Below, one piece after another: positions 30,986 through 51,328 of a DNA stretch of 64,000 bases. The DNA is from Myxococcus hansupus (lineage in GTDB: Bacteria; Myxococcota; Myxococcia; Myxococcales; Myxococcaceae), in the NCBI RefSeq assembly GCF_000280925.3, contig NZ_CP012109.1, forward strand, positions 7,274,501-7,338,500. Direction: 5' to 3'. Each line of letters starts with the position of its first letter. The first letter of the stretch is position 1. The notes under the pieces are model-generated. The model worked only from the letters and a program-made list of their open reading frames with translations. It was not told the origin of the DNA and did not search any database. A program made the translations under genes and the position numbers.

Positions 30986-31825
30986 TCAGGGCCCGGCGTC
31001 TGGCAACGGGCCCTGGAGCTGGAATGTCTCCAGACGCGTCTGCGCCCCCGCGTCGCGGAGCCGCTGCACCAGCGGCGCGTCGTCCATCAGCGCGACATTC
31101 AGGGAGGACACGCCCTCCCCCATCCGGAGGAAGGCGTCCTCCAGCAGCGTCCGCGCATGCGCGGGTGACACGGCGAAGAAGGGGAACAGGGTGGGCCCGG
31201 AGGCGCGCAGGTCCATCATCCCCAGCCACTGGCGCCCGGGCGCCCGCGAGTCGACGAGCCCCAGCACCCGGTGCGACGCACGGGCCACGAAGCACGCCAG
31301 CTTGCCGGGCACCATCCGGAAGGCCTCCGTCAACGCGTCGCAGTCCTCTCGCGTCACCGGCACCAGGCGCCCCTCGGGTGACGCAGGGGGAAGCGCGTCC
31401 AGGTGCGCCCGCGTCACCCGCAGCGTGGTGGCCTCGCGCACCGGCCGCATGCCCAACGAGGTGTAGAGCGCGAGCGCGGGCACGTTGTCCCGCTTCACGT
31501 TGAGGCCCCAGCGGGCACACCCTTGTGCGCGCAGGTGCTCGGCCAGGTGCGCCATCATCGTCCGCCCCAGCCCCTTCCCTCGCGCGGACGGGGCCACCAC
31601 CAACTGGCTCACGTACCCGAAAGTCCCCAGGGACTCCGCCACGCCGTAGGCCTCAACACCCCGGGGGCCCTCCGCGAGCAGGGCGAGGGGCGCGAGCTCC
31701 GCCGCCCACATGGACTCAGGAGGTGGGGGGTCATCCACCCCGAGCTCCAAGAAGAGCCGGGCAAAGACGGCGTGGTCCTCCAACCGACCTGGACGCACCA
31801 CCCACGGCGATTCCGCGAAACCCAC
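30986..31825 (-). CDS. GNAT-family N-acetyltransferase
   Basis: 279 residues from GTG 31825, chosen because AAAGGGAG lies five bases upstream; the longer in-frame start at 31894 would run into the sRNA terminator. The GNAT core (about 10-140) shows the acetyl-CoA motif VVAPSARGKGLGRTMMAHL and the following NVKRDNVPALALYTSLGM. The second half is a less clear C-terminal domain. Substrate unknown. It lies just downstream of the pxr-like RNA, as in M. xanthus by recall. A ribosome reaching it would require its own message or read-through of the sRNA terminator. Confidence 0.88.
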   Translation of the reverse strand: MGFAESPWVVRPGRLEDHAVFARLFLELGVDDPPPPESMWAAELAPLALLAEGPRGVEAYGVAESLGTFGYVSQLVVAPSARGKGLGRTMMAHLAEHLRAQGCARWGLNVKRDNVPALALYTSLGMRPVREATTLRVTRAHLDALPPASPEGRLVPVTREDCDALTEAFRMVPGKLACFVARASHRVLGLVDSRAPGRQWLGMMDLRASGPTLFPFFAVSPAHARTLLEDAFLRMGEGVSSLNVALMDDAPLVQRLRDAGAQTRLETFQLQGPLPDAGP

Positions 31826-31868
31826 CTGAGCTCCCTTTCGTCGCGTGCTGTCAGAGATTACAGACGCC

Positions 31869-31990
31869 GAAAAGAAGGCAGCCCGACACCCCAAAGAGGT
31901 GCCGGGCCGCGGGTCTTCTCAAGGTGACTCACCGGAAGTGCTGAAGGGGTGGGGGGGAACCGCCTTCAGCCTCGCTTCGATGTGTCCCGC
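31869..31990 (-). ncRNA. pxr: Pxr-like small RNA
   Basis: The strand opposite to the reference shows three hairpins in a row. SL1 (31940-31970) has an 8-bp stem GCTGAAGG/CCTTCAGC and a loop holding exactly seven C (31951-31957). SL2 (31911-31939) is a small GGTG-AGT-CACC stem. SL3 (31878-31910) is a 13-bp stem with two G-U pairs followed by CTTCTTTTC, an intrinsic terminator. A sigma-54-type promoter lies just upstream. In M. xanthus, Pxr is a development-blocking sRNA whose activity was lost by a C-to-A change in a run of seven C in SL1, and it is flanked by a sigma-54 regulator and a GNAT gene; both agree. The predicted transcript is about 120 nt. Ends are predicted, not measured. Confidence 0.85.
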
Positions 31991-32000
31991 GTGTTCCTCT

Positions 32001-32016
32001 AGCAGTCGCCATGCCA
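32001..32016 (-). promoter_or_regulatory. sigma-54 (-24/-12) promoter of the sRNA
   Basis: Reads TGGCATGGCGACTGCT on the minus strand: GG at -24 and GC at -12 spaced by ten bases, close to the TGGCAC-N5-TTGC consensus. Transcription should start near 31990, just before the first sRNA hairpin. Confidence 0.75.
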
Positions 32017-32094
32017 GCCGCCTCGCGGTGAGAAACTCTAGTTTTCTCAAGCACTTGAAGGACTAACCGACGCTGGCCCTGCCCCATGGCTGCA

Positions 32095-32144
32095 TTTCAG
32101 TGCTGCAATGGGGTTTCAGATGTGAAAAAGCCGAGTGATTTCAG
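32095..32144 (-). promoter_or_regulatory. three CTGAAA repeats, possible activator sites
   Basis: CTGAAA occurs on the minus strand at 32095-32100, 32114-32119 and 32139-32144. These lie about 105-155 bp upstream of the predicted sRNA start, where sigma-54 activators usually bind. Site function is inferred. Confidence 0.35.
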
Positions 32145-32158
32145 CGGGTTCTCTTTTT

Positions 32159-32218
32159 CACCTATGAACCCGGCCATTTCGGATCTGAATCCATGGCCGC
32201 GGGAAAGTTACATAGGTG
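32159..32218. other. 60-bp nested inverted repeat
   Basis: CACCTATG (32159-32166) pairs with CATAGGTG (32211-32218). Inside, CCCGGCCAT pairs with ATGGCCGCGGG apart from a two-base bulge, and GGAT-CTGA-ATCC forms the tip. Neither strand has a T-run after it. It lies 21 bp downstream of the regulator stop codon and could end that transcript or be a regulatory site. With the sRNA and repeats it accounts for the 414-bp gap between genes. Confidence 0.6.
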
Positions 32219-32239: not shown

Positions 32240-33684
<1,445 letters not shown>

Positions 33685-33688
<4 letters not shown>

Positions 33689-36177
33689 GGGAAGGACGGA
33701 GGCTGCGACAGAGGCAGCCTGAAGGTGAAGGTGGTACCGCGACCCGGGATGCTGTCCACGGCGATTTCGCCCCGGTGCTCCTCGAGGATGCGCCTGACGA
33801 CGGCCAGGCCCAGGCCGGTGCCCTGGGCCTTGGTGGTGAAGAAGGGTTCAAAGACGCGGTGGAGCAGCTCGGCAGGGATGCCCGGGCCCTGGTCCACCAC
33901 GTCGATGCGAAGCTGCTCGCGCCCCGCATGGGCCTCGCGGCGCGCGCGCACCTGCACCAGCCCGCCCTGCGGCATGGACTGGATGGCGTTGACGGCCACG
34001 TTGACCAGCGCCTGCCGGATGAGGCGGCGGTCCATGGGCACCGGCGGCAACCCGGGCTCCACGTCGGACTGGATGAGGATGGAGCGGTCCGCCCCGCCGC
34101 CCTGCATGCGCGCCGCCTCCAGCGAGTCCTGGAGCACGCGCCCCAAGTCCTCCTGCTGGAGCACGGGGTCCCTGGGGCGCGTGTAGTCCAGCAGGTCCCC
34201 GACGATGCGGTTGAGCCGGTCGCTCTCCTCACCCAGGATGTCCAGCAGCATGGCCGCGTCCCCGCCGGGGACCAGCAGCCGGCGCAGCGACGCCACCGCG
34301 TTGAAGATGACGCCCAGCGGGTTGCGCACCTCGTGGGCGACAATCGCGGACAGCTCGCCCAGCGCGGCCAGCCGCTCCCGCTTCACCATCTCCGCGCGCG
34401 TGGCCGCCAGCTCCGCGTAGCTGGCCCACAGCGACTCGTACAGGCGCGCATTGGCGATGGACAGCGCGAGCTGGCCACACGTGGCCTCCGCCAGCTCAAT
34501 CAGCTCCGGCCCGAAGGCCCGCGGCCCGCGCGTGTCGTCCACCACCACCACGCCGATGAGCTCCTCGCGCGAGGTCAGCGGCAGCGCGAGAATCGCCTTC
34601 TCGTCGAAGCGGTGCGCGAGCTCCGAATTGAAGCCTCCCTCCGCCGTGGACACGTCTTCCACGGCGATGGGCCTGCGGTCCCGGGCCACGCGCGCCGTCA
34701 GCCCATCTCCGTGCAGCGGCAGGACCACGGTGCGGAAGAAGTCCCGGTGGGCAATGGACGCCGCGGCGCCGCGCAGCACCCGGGCGCTCTCGTCGTAGAG
34801 GAGGATGTAGCAGTTGGACACGTCCAACAGCCGGACGAGGAAGTCCGCCGCCACGTCCAGGATGCTCGACGTCTCCAGCACCCCCGACGTGGTGCGCGCG
34901 AGGTCCAGGAGCAGGCGCGTCTCCGAGAGCTGCCGCGCGGACTCCGTGCGCAGGCGGCGCTGCTCCAACAGCGAGACCAGCAGCTCCGACAACGTGCCCA
35001 GCAGTTGCAGGTCCCGCGCGTCGAAGGCGTGGCCCGGCGCGCGCAGCACCTGGAGCGCGCCGCACACCTCTCCGCCGCGCGTCAGACACACCACCGCGCC
35101 CGTCCCGAGCCTGCCGCCGGACAGCTCCGCCAGGGACGCCTCCTGCGCGGGCGAGGACAACGCGCCCTCCGCGCGGCCCACCAGCACGGCCGTGAGCCGC
35201 GCGGCGTCCGCCGACGCCTCCAGCCCCACATGGGACGACAGCGCCAGCGCGCCCTCTGGAGGCAGCGACACGTGCAGGGCCGCGGCGCTGGCCTGCAGCA
35301 GGGACGCGACGCGCGCCAGGAAGTCCTCCTGCGAGGGCGGCGAAGGCTGCGCGACGAAGCGCGCCACCTGCGCCACCGACTCCATCTCCCAGCGGCCGCG
35401 CGCGCTGTCCGCCTGCACCCGCGCGTCCGTCAGCGCGGCGCTCACCACCTTGGCGAAGAGCATCAGCACCGAGCCATGGTGCGGCGCCACCCAGTGGCCC
35501 GCCACCCACAGCACCTCGGTTTGAGGGCCGCCCACGGGCAGGTAGACGTGGCTGGGAGCGGAGTGCTCCGCGCCACCGAACACGGGCCGCCCGTCCGCGA
35601 GCGACTCCAGGCCCAGTTGAGCGTCCTCGGGGAGCTGCGCCCCGTCGCGGGCCACCAGCCCCTCCCCTTCCCAGCGCAGCAGGCGGGCCCGGAAGCCCGC
35701 GGCCTCCAACCCCTTCAGCGCGACGCGGCGCACCGCGTCCTCGGAGTGCGCGGAGACCAGCCCCGCGGAGGTCTCCACCAGCCGCTCGGCCACCGACATC
35801 TCCGGAGGCCGCCCCTCCGTGGGGATGCAGTTGAGCAGCAACGCGGAGCCGCCGCCCTCCAGCTCGAGCCGGGACGTGAGGACGGCCACCTCCCGCGTGA
35901 CGCCGTTGGCACACGGCACCTGGAACAACTGCGCGCTGGCGTCGAGCGGGGCGCCAGCCTCCACCCGCCGGTAGCGCTCGATGAGCCGGCTGCGGTCCTC
36001 CGGCTGGACGAAGTCCATGGCGGAGCGGCCTTCGACGTGCTCCCGCGCCAGGCCCACCATGGCGACGTACGCGTCGTTGGCGGCGAGCACGCGCCCGTCC
36101 GCCAACACCACCACGGGGTTGCGGAAAGGCTCGATGACGGTCCGAAGGTCCGCCTCGCTGTAGCGCTTGGTACTCAT
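33685..36177 (-). CDS. PAS/GAF hybrid sensor histidine kinase
   Basis: 830 residues, no membrane segment, so probably cytoplasmic. N-terminal PAS domain (about 10-120), a divergent GAF-like region (about 150-390), a clear GAF domain (about 420-570), then HisKA with phospho-His in AIVAHEVRNPLGV, and HATPase with N-box VNVAVNAIQSM, G1 VVDQGPGI and G2 GTGLGLAVV. It overlaps selB by four bases upstream and the regulator by four bases downstream. The signal is unknown; GAF and PAS domains suggest a small intracellular ligand or redox cue. Confidence 0.94.
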
Positions 36178-38090
36178 CCGCGACGCAGCACCCGCTTCTC
36201 TCCCACCCGGAGCGTCACCTTCTCCCGGTCGAAGTACTCGGACAGGGGGATGACGAACTTGCGGCTTTGCCCGACCATCTCCTTGAAGTCCTGGGTGGTA
36301 ATCTCCTTCTTCTCACGCAGGTGGGCAACCAGACGCTCGCGCAAGGCCGTCAAGGCCCGGGCCTCGAACCAGAGCCCCTCCGTCACGCGCACCACCACGC
36401 CCTCCGCCACCAGGACGCCCAGCAACTCCTTCAGCCGGGCCTCCGGAAGCTGGAGTTTCTGCTCCAGTTCGGAGAGCGTGGGAGGCGCGAGCCCCGCCGC
36501 GGAGAGCTCCACCGCCAGCCGCGTCCGGGCGGCACTCTCTCCCAGGGTCAGCGTGCGGCCGCGCCCCTTGAGGCGCACCCCCTCTCGCTCCAGCTCCACC
36601 CGGCCTCCTTCCACCAGGGCCTGCAACACGCGCTGAAACACCCGCGCATCCAGGGGCGCGGACAACCGCTGCCGCAGCTCCTCGCGCGACAGGCTGTCAC
36701 GCAGGGGCTCGCGCTCATGGAACGTGGCCAGCAGCGACAGGGCCCGGCCCTGCAAGCCCTCGAAGACTTCACCGGAGAGATACAGCCGCCGCTCCCGGTC
36801 GACGAGCAGCGCGCCGCCCCGCGCGCCCAGCAACTCCAGCGTGCGCGTCAGCACCCGAGGCCCCAGCGCCGAGCGGCCGAACAGCTCCGGCTGCGTCAGC
36901 CCCCGGTAGCCCGCCTGACGCAGCAGCCACGCCACCTGCGCCCCAGGGTCCGCCTCCAGCAGGGGCGCCACCAGCGCCGCGCTGCCCTTGCGCCGCCGGG
37001 TGGACGCGATGGAGAGGACGTGCCCCCCCGCCACCGTGGCGCCGCGCCCCGGCAGTGCCCGGGCGCCCCGCAGGATGAAGCGCTGCCCCACGAGCGCGCC
37101 CACCGGCGAGGCCAGCCGGAGCTGCGCCAGCGTCGTCTCGCCGGGCTCCAGGCGCTCCACGTCCAGCAGCGCCACCGTGGCCTCCACCTGCGCGGTGCCC
37201 AGGTGCAACAGCAGCTTCGTGCGGCGCGGCAGCGGCGCGGGCGCCGCGGGCAGCAGCGTCAACGCCACGTCCAGCATCGCCGTCTCGGGGAGCTCGCCCG
37301 CGCGCACCAGCACCATGCCCCGGTGCAGCGCCTCCGGCTCCACGCCCACCAGGTTCACCGCCGCGCGCTGCCCCGCCGTCACACGGCCCACCGCCTCGCC
37401 GTGACGCTGCACGCCGCGCACGCGCAAGGGACCGGGCAGGCCCGGCAGCAGTGACACCGCGTCCTCCACCGCCAGCGCGCCGGACAGCAGCGTGCCCGTC
37501 ACCACGGTGCCAAAGCCCTTCATGGAGAAGACGCGGTCCACCGGGAGGAAAGAGGGGCCTTCCAACGGGCGCTCGGGCAGGGCCGCCGCGGCGCGGGAGA
37601 GCGCGGCGCGCAGCGCGTCCAGGCCCTCGCCGGACCTCGACGAGCACGCCACCACGGGCGCCTGCTCCAGGAAGGTCCCCACCGTGAGCGAGGCCAGGTC
37701 CGCCTCCACCAGTGCGCGCCACTCCGGGCCGAGCTCCGCCAGCGTGTCCGACTTGGTGAGCGCGATGACCCCCGCCTTCACGCCCAGCAGCCGGCAGATG
37801 TCCAGGTGCTCGCGCGTCTGGGGCATCACGCCCTCGTCCGCGGCCACCACCAAGACGGCCAGGTCCACGCCGCCAGCGCCGGCGGCCATGGCCTTCACGA
37901 AGCGCTCGTGACCGGGCACATCCACCACGCCCGCCACCGCGCCGTCATCCAGCGTCAGGTGGGCGAAGCCCAGCTCCAGGGTGATGCCACGGCGCTTCTC
38001 TTCCTTCAGCCGGTCGGTGTCGATGCCGGTGAGCACCTTCACCAGGGACGTCTTGCCATGGTCGATGTGGCCCGCCGTCCCGATAATCAT
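36174..38090 (-). CDS. selB: selenocysteine-specific elongation factor
   Basis: 638 residues, the standard SelB size. It delivers Sec-tRNA to UGA codons with a SECIS hairpin. The GTPase domain starts [20 protein letters not shown], with [12 protein letters not shown] and TKSD; beta-barrel domains follow, then winged-helix repeats at the C-terminus (about 460-638) that bind SECIS. It overlaps the sensor kinase gene. selA, selC and selD are not in the window, so they must lie elsewhere if the pathway is active. Confidence 0.93.
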
Positions 38091-49810: not shown

Positions 49811-51328
49811 TCAGTAGTACCGCTTGCGCTTGCTGCTGGGGAGGATGCCCAGCACCTCGCGGTACTTGGCCACCGTGCGGCGGGCAATCTCGGTGCCCTG
49901 CGAGCGCAGCAGCTCCACGATTTTCTGGTCCGAGTACGGGTTGCGGGCGTCTTCCTGCGACACCAACTGCTTGATGTGGTGCTTCACCGCCTCGCTCGCG
50001 GTGTCCTCACCGGACACGCGGGCGATGGACGAGTTGAAGAAGTACTTCAGCTCGAAGATGCCCTGCGGGGTGTGCACGTACTTGCTGGTGGTGACGCGGC
50101 TCACCGTGGACTCGTGCATGCCGATGTCCTCGGCCACGTCCCGGAGGATGAGCGGCTTGAGGTGGGCGATGCCCTTGTCCAGGAAGTCCCGCTGGAACTT
50201 CACGATGCTCTCGGTGACCTTGTAGATGGTCCGCTGCCGCTGGTGGATGGAGCGGATGAGCCACATCGCGCTGCGCAGCTTGTCCTGGATGAAGTCCTTC
50301 GTCTGGCCGGGGCCCACCGCGCCCGTCTTCAACGCGTTCCGGTAGGTGCCGGAGATGCGCAGCTTGGACAGGCCGTCATCGTTGAGCACCACCGTGTACT
50401 CGTCCCCCATCTTGTAGACGAACACGTCGGGGGTGATGTACTGCGCGTCGTCCCCGCTGAAGTTGCGGCCCGGCTTCGGGTCCAGCTTCGGGAGCAGCCG
50501 CACCGCCTCCACCACCTCTTCCAAGGTGACCTTCAGGTCCTTGGCGATGGCGGGCAGGTTCTTGCTCTCCAGGTACTTCATGTGCCGCTTGATGATGAGG
50601 CCCAGCAGCGGCGCGTGCGGCTCCTTCATCCCCTGGAGCTGGATGAGCAGGCACTCCTGCAAGTCACGGGCGCCGCAGCCGCGCGGGTCCAACATCTGGA
50701 TGCGGCGCAGCGTGCGCTCCGCGACGTGCATGGGCACGTCCGCCTCGTTGGCCAGGCGGATGAGCGGATCTCCGTCCACTTCCGGCAGCTTGAGGTAGCC
50801 GTCGTCATCCAGGTTGCCCAGGATGAGCATGGCGATGCGGCGCTCGGCGTCGTTCAGGCGCAGCGTGCCGAGCTGCTCCTGGATGTGGTCGACCAGGTCC
50901 TCCTTCTTGACGAGGTTGGCCTCGAACGACGGCAGGTCGTCCGTGGCCACGTTCCCCTTGTTGGAGGCGGTGGTCGGCTCGTTGAACTGGTAGCTGTTGA
51001 GGTACTGCTCCCAGTCGATTTCCGGGGGGCCCTCCCCGTCCGCCTTGAACTCCGTGGCGGTGTCGCTGGTGGCCGCGGGCAGGTCCATGTCCCGCGGCAT
51101 TTCCACGTTGTCAGCCTCCAGGGAGGCTTCACCGGGTTCCTTGTCCCCCACGTCTCCCGGGGCCTGCTCGTCGGGCTGCTCCAGCAGTGGGTTCTGCTCC
51201 ATCTCCTCGCGGACCTGCTCGAGCAGCTCCATGCGGGACAGTTGGAGGAGCTTGATGGCCTGCTGCAGCTGCGGCGTCATCACCAGCTGCTGGGCAAGCT
51301 TCAGGCTTTGTTTCAGTTCCATCGCCAT
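49811..51328 (-). CDS. rpoN: RNA polymerase sigma-54 factor
   Basis: 505 residues. Region I starts LKQSLKLAQQLVMTPQLQQA (Gln-rich, activator contact), region II is acidic, and region III ends with the RpoN box RRTVAKYREVLGI. It recognises -24/-12 promoters such as the one at 32001-32016. It lies downstream of lptB, with 247 bp between. Confidence 0.97.
   Translation of the reverse strand: MAMELKQSLKLAQQLVMTPQLQQAIKLLQLSRMELLEQVREEMEQNPLLEQPDEQAPGDVGDKEPGEASLEADNVEMPRDMDLPAATSDTATEFKADGEGPPEIDWEQYLNSYQFNEPTTASNKGNVATDDLPSFEANLVKKEDLVDHIQEQLGTLRLNDAERRIAMLILGNLDDDGYLKLPEVDGDPLIRLANEADVPMHVAERTLRRIQMLDPRGCGARDLQECLLIQLQGMKEPHAPLLGLIIKRHMKYLESKNLPAIAKDLKVTLEEVVEAVRLLPKLDPKPGRNFSGDDAQYITPDVFVYKMGDEYTVVLNDDGLSKLRISGTYRNALKTGAVGPGQTKDFIQDKLRSAMWLIRSIHQRQRTIYKVTESIVKFQRDFLDKGIAHLKPLILRDVAEDIGMHESTVSRVTTSKYVHTPQGIFELKYFFNSSIARVSGEDTASEAVKHHIKQLVSQEDARNPYSDQKIVELLRSQGTEIARRTVAKYREVLGILPSSKRKRYY

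Follow-up and report, generated by a model that had tools for sequence, protein, structure and literature searches.

Paired palindromes and a sigma-54 promoter as the predicted control region of the Pxr small RNA gene in Myxococcus hansupus

The pxr locus and its control region

A single RNA family, the Pxr sRNA (RF01812), was matched by cmscan in the 64-kb window, i.e. the whole stretch of DNA analysed here. The 9,490,432-base genome carries one copy of pxr, which lies downstream of pxrR on the same strand, the position expected for RF01812. The genes of the locus are the following.

31870..31977, minus strand: Pxr sRNA as annotated (RF01812; cmscan, 125.8 bits for a cut-off of 80)
32240..33688, minus strand: pxrR, NtrC-type activator with a receiver, an AAA+ domain with GAFTGA and a Fis HTH (domain match)
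33685..36177, minus strand: pxrK, histidine kinase with PAS, GAF, HisKA and HATPase domains (domain match)
36174..38090, minus strand: selB, selenocysteine elongation factor (TIGR00475, 305 bits for a cut-off of 242)
30986..31894, minus strand: GNAT acetyltransferase gene downstream of pxr, named pxrA in M. xanthus (domain match)

The RF01812 match confirms the sRNA gene proposed in the initial annotation, and the next upstream gene on the same strand does encode, as had been read there, a sigma-54 activator with receiver, AAA+ and Fis-type HTH domains; with its GAFTGA motif, PxrR has all the parts of an NtrC-type protein. The pxrR-pxr intergenic region measures 262 bp. The selB gene overlaps the start of pxrK and is a steady neighbour of pxrR across genomes. 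The same window also contains rpoN (about 49820-50296, minus strand), some 18 kb from pxr.

According to the portions of the Pxr literature covered by our search, Pxr inhibits fruiting-body development in M. xanthus, as do some of its homologs (PMC5684412), and its synthesis is controlled by PxrK and PxrR, pxrR being essential for it (PMC5684412, PMC10217877, PMC5568312). The same accounts predict a sigma-54 promoter in the intergenic region of 260-262 nt, where they also place an 'enhancer binding region' (PMC5684412, PMC10217877, PMC5568312), and the pxrA acetyltransferase is given as a likely Pxr target (PMC11928866). The kinase-regulator-sRNA circuit is thus already known for M. xanthus.

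For the comparison, pxr was found in 93 of the 145 genomes of the order and 122 copies were taken from 83 of them, the ten pxr-bearing genomes left out all belonging to genus g6. Two weak RF01812 matches that do not have the C-rich core, L048 (G076) and L077 (G055), were excluded before counting; the weak matches of G049 and G134 also have no core, and these two genomes, having neither pxr nor PxrR, are uninformative. The elements that we propose upstream of pxr are listed below.

32001..32016, minus strand: sigma-54 promoter TGGCATGGCGACTGCT, 11/11 match to TGGCAYG-N5-TGCW
32038..32057, minus strand: IHF-like element CAAGTGCTTGAGAAAACTAG, between operators and promoter (motif search)
32095..32108, minus strand: candidate PxrR operator 2, TTGCAGCACTGAAA, exact palindrome
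32114..32127, minus strand: candidate PxrR operator 1, TTTCACATCTGAAA, exact palindrome; spacing to operator 2, 19 bp
32131..32150, minus strand: second copy of the IHF-like element, which holds the third CTGAAA (by eye, in 27 genus sequences)
32156..32169, minus strand: weaker third candidate operator, GTTCATAGGTGAAA, one mismatch

At 32001-32016 the GG-N10-GC skeleton is present together with the TGGCAYG and TGCW elements. The string itself is no commoner than chance, with 34 exact matches in the genome vs 33 for the reversed control, and with 4 promoter-like strings (up to one mismatch) in the window for 6.3 expected, so that the promoter claim has to rest on conservation. This conservation indicates that the near-consensus -24/-12 site first noticed upstream of the sRNA is real: a site scoring at least 9/11 is present in all of the 117 pxr copies of the 78 PxrR-bearing genomes, and the score reaches at least 10/11 in 113 copies and 11/11 in 95.

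The initial annotation had taken three CTGAAA direct repeats (32095-32100, 32114-32119 and 32139-32144, all on the minus strand) as the binding unit of the activator and had proposed to check their conservation in relatives. These three copies are contained within 50 bp, and when the 262-bp intergenic region was shuffled 2000 times, three copies within 60 bp were never obtained, which speaks for the repeats. However, the full triple is kept in only 2 of the 27 genomes of the genus, whereas two exact palindromes are present in 27 of 27; moreover, half-sites of these palindromes account for two of the CTGAAA copies, and the third (32139-32144) lies outside every palindrome. The direct repeats are contradicted as the binding unit by this comparison, and we consider them highly improbable in that role. 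As judged from the conserved letters, the unit is the palindrome TTKCA-N4-TGMAA, usually paired 19 bp apart. The position given for the repeats, in the usual activator zone, holds for the two exact palindromes, located 105-118 and 124-137 bp upstream of the predicted start at 31990.

At least one exact palindrome accompanies 112 of the 117 pxr copies of PxrR-bearing genomes; when up to one mismatch is allowed, at least one is found in 116 copies and at least two in 112, the sole copy without any ending at a contig edge with 8 bp of upstream sequence. The mean number of exact sites per upstream region is 1.83 vs 0.0012 in shuffled sequences, only 0.12% of which hold an exact palindrome. Where two exact sites are found near the promoter (99 copies), the spacing is 19 in 68.

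The location of these inverted repeats, between the stop codon of pxrR and pxr, would also fit a terminator of pxrR or a part of the pxrR mRNA. Against this explanation, the repeats follow pxr and not pxrR: (i) four pxr copies located apart from pxrR, L052 (G088), L058 (G093) and L061 and L062 (G121), all have a sigma-54 site together with palindromes, which are exact in two copies and contain one mismatch in the other two; (ii) the copies in tandem arrays carry their own promoters and palindromes; and (iii) in G050 and G054 pxrR has the opposite orientation, yet the sites stay beside pxr. We therefore regard a terminator or mRNA origin of the repeats as scarcely credible, even less so than the direct repeats, and we retain the palindromes as putative operators. 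The displaced Pxr-like genes may represent trans members of the family. In genera g3 and g7, up to five pxr copies stand in tandem (L032-L038, L044-L047).

In the spacer, the motif search selected 46 of 109 distinct promoters, with a log-likelihood of 300 vs 46-50 for shuffled spacers; in most of these 46, the start of the motif CAAGTGCYTGAAAWCA is at -41 from the promoter or, one turn nearer, at -30. The IHF consensus is WATCAANNNNTTR; read on the other strand, the motif fits it at most positions, with T/C for A at the second. One match to the IHF-alpha model is found in the genome (125.8 for a cut-off of 120.25), and we read the spacer motif as resembling an IHF site.

Only two exact palindromes are present in the 9.49 Mb of this genome, both at pxr, vs nine occurrences of the reversed pattern. 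Allowing one mismatch yields 120 sites genome-wide, of which the first part was viewed site by site, vs 236 for the reversed control. A broader regulon of PxrR was considered for this genome and rejected, with no further exact sites and with one-mismatch sites below the reversed control, and so was an autoregulation of pxrK/pxrR by the same motif, the sites of the window (up to one mismatch) being located only at pxr. PxrR and pxr apparently form a dedicated pair, the single-target claim being limited to this genome. In the other, larger genomes of the genus, the number of exact palindromes is 2-11, which is near the control counts, and a few of these palindromes recur in close relatives. The exact palindrome TTTCAGATCTGAAA is found away from pxr at G095:C111:565552, G104:C1:11535889 and G109:C1:6215396; this recurrence would be compatible with a possible second PxrR target in some lineages.

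Distribution of PxrR and PxrK among pxr-bearing genomes

Five genomes (G122, G123, G125, G126 and G127) have pxr and no PxrR ortholog; their best PxrR matches reach 44-48% identity, the level of paralogs, whereas the orthologs of the other genera searched are at 70-74%. None of the five has an exact palindrome near pxr, and G127 has a one-mismatch palindrome at -226. G122 and G123 also have no sigma-54 site; TTGTCA-N17-TAT-like sequences are present instead, which, by eye, may be read as sigma-70-like. In G125-G127, which form genus g23, the GG-N10-GC skeleton is left with a poor -24 element and a score of 8-9/11, so that the loss of sigma-54 control in g23 is not certain. G087, where pxr is a weak match (29.6 bits) with the C-rich core and a TATAAA box, revealed neither palindromes near pxr nor a PxrR ortholog. 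The rpoN gene was found in G122, G125, G126 and G087 and was not found in G123 and G127, both assemblies being incomplete, in a set of PxrR-less genomes that is itself small. The g23 assemblies, of 2.1-2.7 Mb, keep a pxr-like RNA without a PxrR ortholog (L066-L068).

This joint absence bears on the identity of the activator. The genome contains more than 100 PxrR-like matches (116), and two activators are described as sharing the qrr1 operators in Vibrio fischeri (PMC10162802); another sigma-54 activator could therefore bind the palindromes, PxrR acting indirectly. On the other hand, the palindromes are gone exactly where PxrR is gone, although rpoN and many other activators remain (109 matches in G122), and pxrR adjoins pxr in most genomes. 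We consider an indirect role of PxrR unlikely, and a direct one is preferred. The link between regulator and sRNA through the sigma-54 promoter is strongly supported by conservation, near-uniqueness of the operator in the genome and joint absence, and it is in line with the genetic data published for M. xanthus.

In the RpoB tree, G122 and G126 are located in different clades of PxrR-bearing genera, and PxrR is present in G086 and G085, which branch deepest in the family; this suggests that PxrR was lost at least twice, with the caveat that G126 is a long branch and that the G122 node has a support of only 94/96.

The kinase is distributed differently. PxrK is missing, with selB ending 21-78 bp before pxrR, in G053, G085, G089, G090, G091, G094 and G128, and these seven genomes, which represent seven genera, have all retained pxr with its promoter and palindromes, as well as PxrR. 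Eight genomes were searched whole (G085, G090, G091, G094 and G128, and also G052, G088 and G132); their best PxrK matches are at the level of paralogs, with 36-43% identity, or 51-55% over the kinase core alone, and the top match had 352 bits, slightly above the 323 bits (40% identity) of the second-best PxrK match in the present genome. In G086 and G093, a linked kinase resembles PxrK over its C-terminal half. The direct selB-pxrR neighbourhood was observed in distant genera (L042, L049, L053, L054, L055, L059, L069), and pxrK stands between the two genes on the Myxococcus side of the family.

From this gene content, PxrK is not part of the conserved unit. GAFTGA is present in 76 of 76 PxrR frames and the phospho-acceptor Asp in all 49 frames that cover the site, and since this residue is kept, PxrR is presumably still phosphorylated in genera without PxrK. 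Of the kinase-regulator-sRNA circuit predicted initially, the regulator-sRNA part is strongly supported, whereas the kinase part does not hold as a constant, being missing in seven genera that keep PxrR.

The 5' end of Pxr RNA and a putative leader helix

Transcripts of sigma-54 promoters start about 12 nt beyond the C of the -12 GC. This C is at 32002, which predicts a Pxr start near 31990, with the annotated end 13 nt further downstream; for the pxr copies of other loci, the predicted start lies 7-15 nt from the Rfam start. Two features follow.

31978..31990, minus strand: predicted Pxr 5' leader, absent from the annotation (sigma-54 geometry, covarying helix)
31923..31934, minus strand: 3' strand of the closing helix P1, pairing with the leader; it folds SL2 in the published model

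In the fold of the window RNA, the leader GGGACACAUCG pairs with CGGUGAGUCACC, with a probability of 0.82-1.0 for 10 leader bases. SL1 and SL3 fold, and SL2 is displaced once the 13-nt leader is included; without the leader the published SL2 forms, and the Rfam model likewise has SL2 and no leader. In the predicted structures, helix P1 thus excludes the published SL2, and the published three-stem-loop fold appears to start 13 nt too late.

To assess covariation, 42 representatives from 23 genera were aligned with MAFFT from sequence alone. The leader helix shows 80.6% standard pairs vs 40-46% when the strands are slid, a covariation of 0.570 vs 0.15-0.21, and two-sided changes in all ten pairs. 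In the same alignment, SL2 shows 63.4% standard pairs vs up to 60.4% slid and little covariation (0.318 vs up to 0.312). In the strict fold test, a mean of 10.3 leader pairs was obtained vs 6.6 for shuffled and 7.2 for swapped leaders, and the mean was above the shuffled value in 22 of the 23 genera. The helix tests were run without L052, in which the core pattern is absent, and without the PxrR-less genomes. Three other measures were less favourable to the helix: (i) a wide helix definition was non-discriminating, being satisfied by 80 of 81 observed and 81% of shuffled leaders; (ii) RNAalifold on the plain alignment gave 3 pairs only, the leader helix not among them; and (iii) duplex energy discriminated only moderately, the own leader beating all other-genus partners in only 15 of 81 cases (12 of 81 the reverse way).

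SL2 appears in the window RNA after about 10 nt of 5' trimming. The Pxr literature describes a processing of Pxr-L to Pxr-S and a conversion of Pxr-XL to Pxr-L by RNase D; in the searched part of these accounts of Pxr-XL, Pxr-L and Pxr-S, a mapped transcript end was not found. The appearance of SL2 on trimming is the basis of a two-state reading of Pxr, where the leader would close a helix round the C-rich SL1 and the loss of about 10 nt from the 5' end would free SL2, so that this trimming could be what converts Pxr-L into the active Pxr-S. We put this forward tentatively, as a model that is more probably wrong than right. If true, the nutrient checkpoint would be a switch based on RNA refolding, with a single-purpose sigma-54 activator feeding it.

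Proposed control of pxr and comparison with known systems

Taken together, these data are in agreement with a control region in which PxrR, on paired palindromes, would drive the sigma-54 promoter of pxr, a reading to which we assign a probability of about 0.86. In this lineage, PxrK would phosphorylate PxrR, whose dimers would bind upstream of the start, at the two TTKCA-N4-TGMAA palindromes (105-137 bp). The DNA would loop back, probably bent at the IHF-like site between operators and promoter, and the GAFTGA loop of PxrR would make the sigma-54 polymerase open the promoter at 32001-32016. The RNA would begin near 31990, the exact start being a prediction, and end at the terminator, at about 31870.

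The circuit is known, and its parts now become testable: an exact operator can be mutated and the start of the transcript mapped. Further handles are the apparently single target of PxrR and the natural lineages in which the sRNA is kept in the absence of this regulator, and the absence of PxrK in many genera raises the question of the signal that feeds PxrR there. In the searched part of the Pxr literature, outside which the key papers of 2010, 2014 and 2016 fall, we found neither an operator sequence, in the corrected form given here or any other, nor a mention of the operator and PxrR being absent together, of the kinase being variable or of the leader helix.

The M. xanthus system, as far as it is described in the text consulted, shares with the present one the sRNA, the regulator, the kinase and the order of the genes, as well as an intergenic region of 262 nt with a predicted sigma-54 promoter and an enhancer region (PMC5684412, PMC10217877, PMC5568312, PMC11928866). 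The published statement that the two-component system lies upstream of pxr in all species examined, taken as worded in these excerpts, fails for PxrK in our wider set. In Vibrio, the parts of the LuxO-Qrr literature consulted describe a receiver-bearing sigma-54 activator that serves sRNA genes almost wholly, palindromic operators TTGCAWWWTGCAA upstream of sigma-54 promoters, as at pxr, and several sRNA copies comparable to the Pxr arrays (PMC10162802, PMC10328515). The operator spacer differs, with 3 for LuxO and 4 for PxrR, and PxrR stays below the cut-off of the LuxO model NF041946 (358 vs 800 bits). Qrr acts together with Hfq. An hfq homolog is reported to be absent from M. xanthus in the part of the source consulted (PMC5684412). 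Finally, the CbrB-CrcZ system of Pseudomonas also combines an NtrC-type activator, an sRNA and a sigma-54 promoter; at least 61 genes are reported to be under the direct control of CbrB, whereas PxrR looks dedicated in the genome described here.
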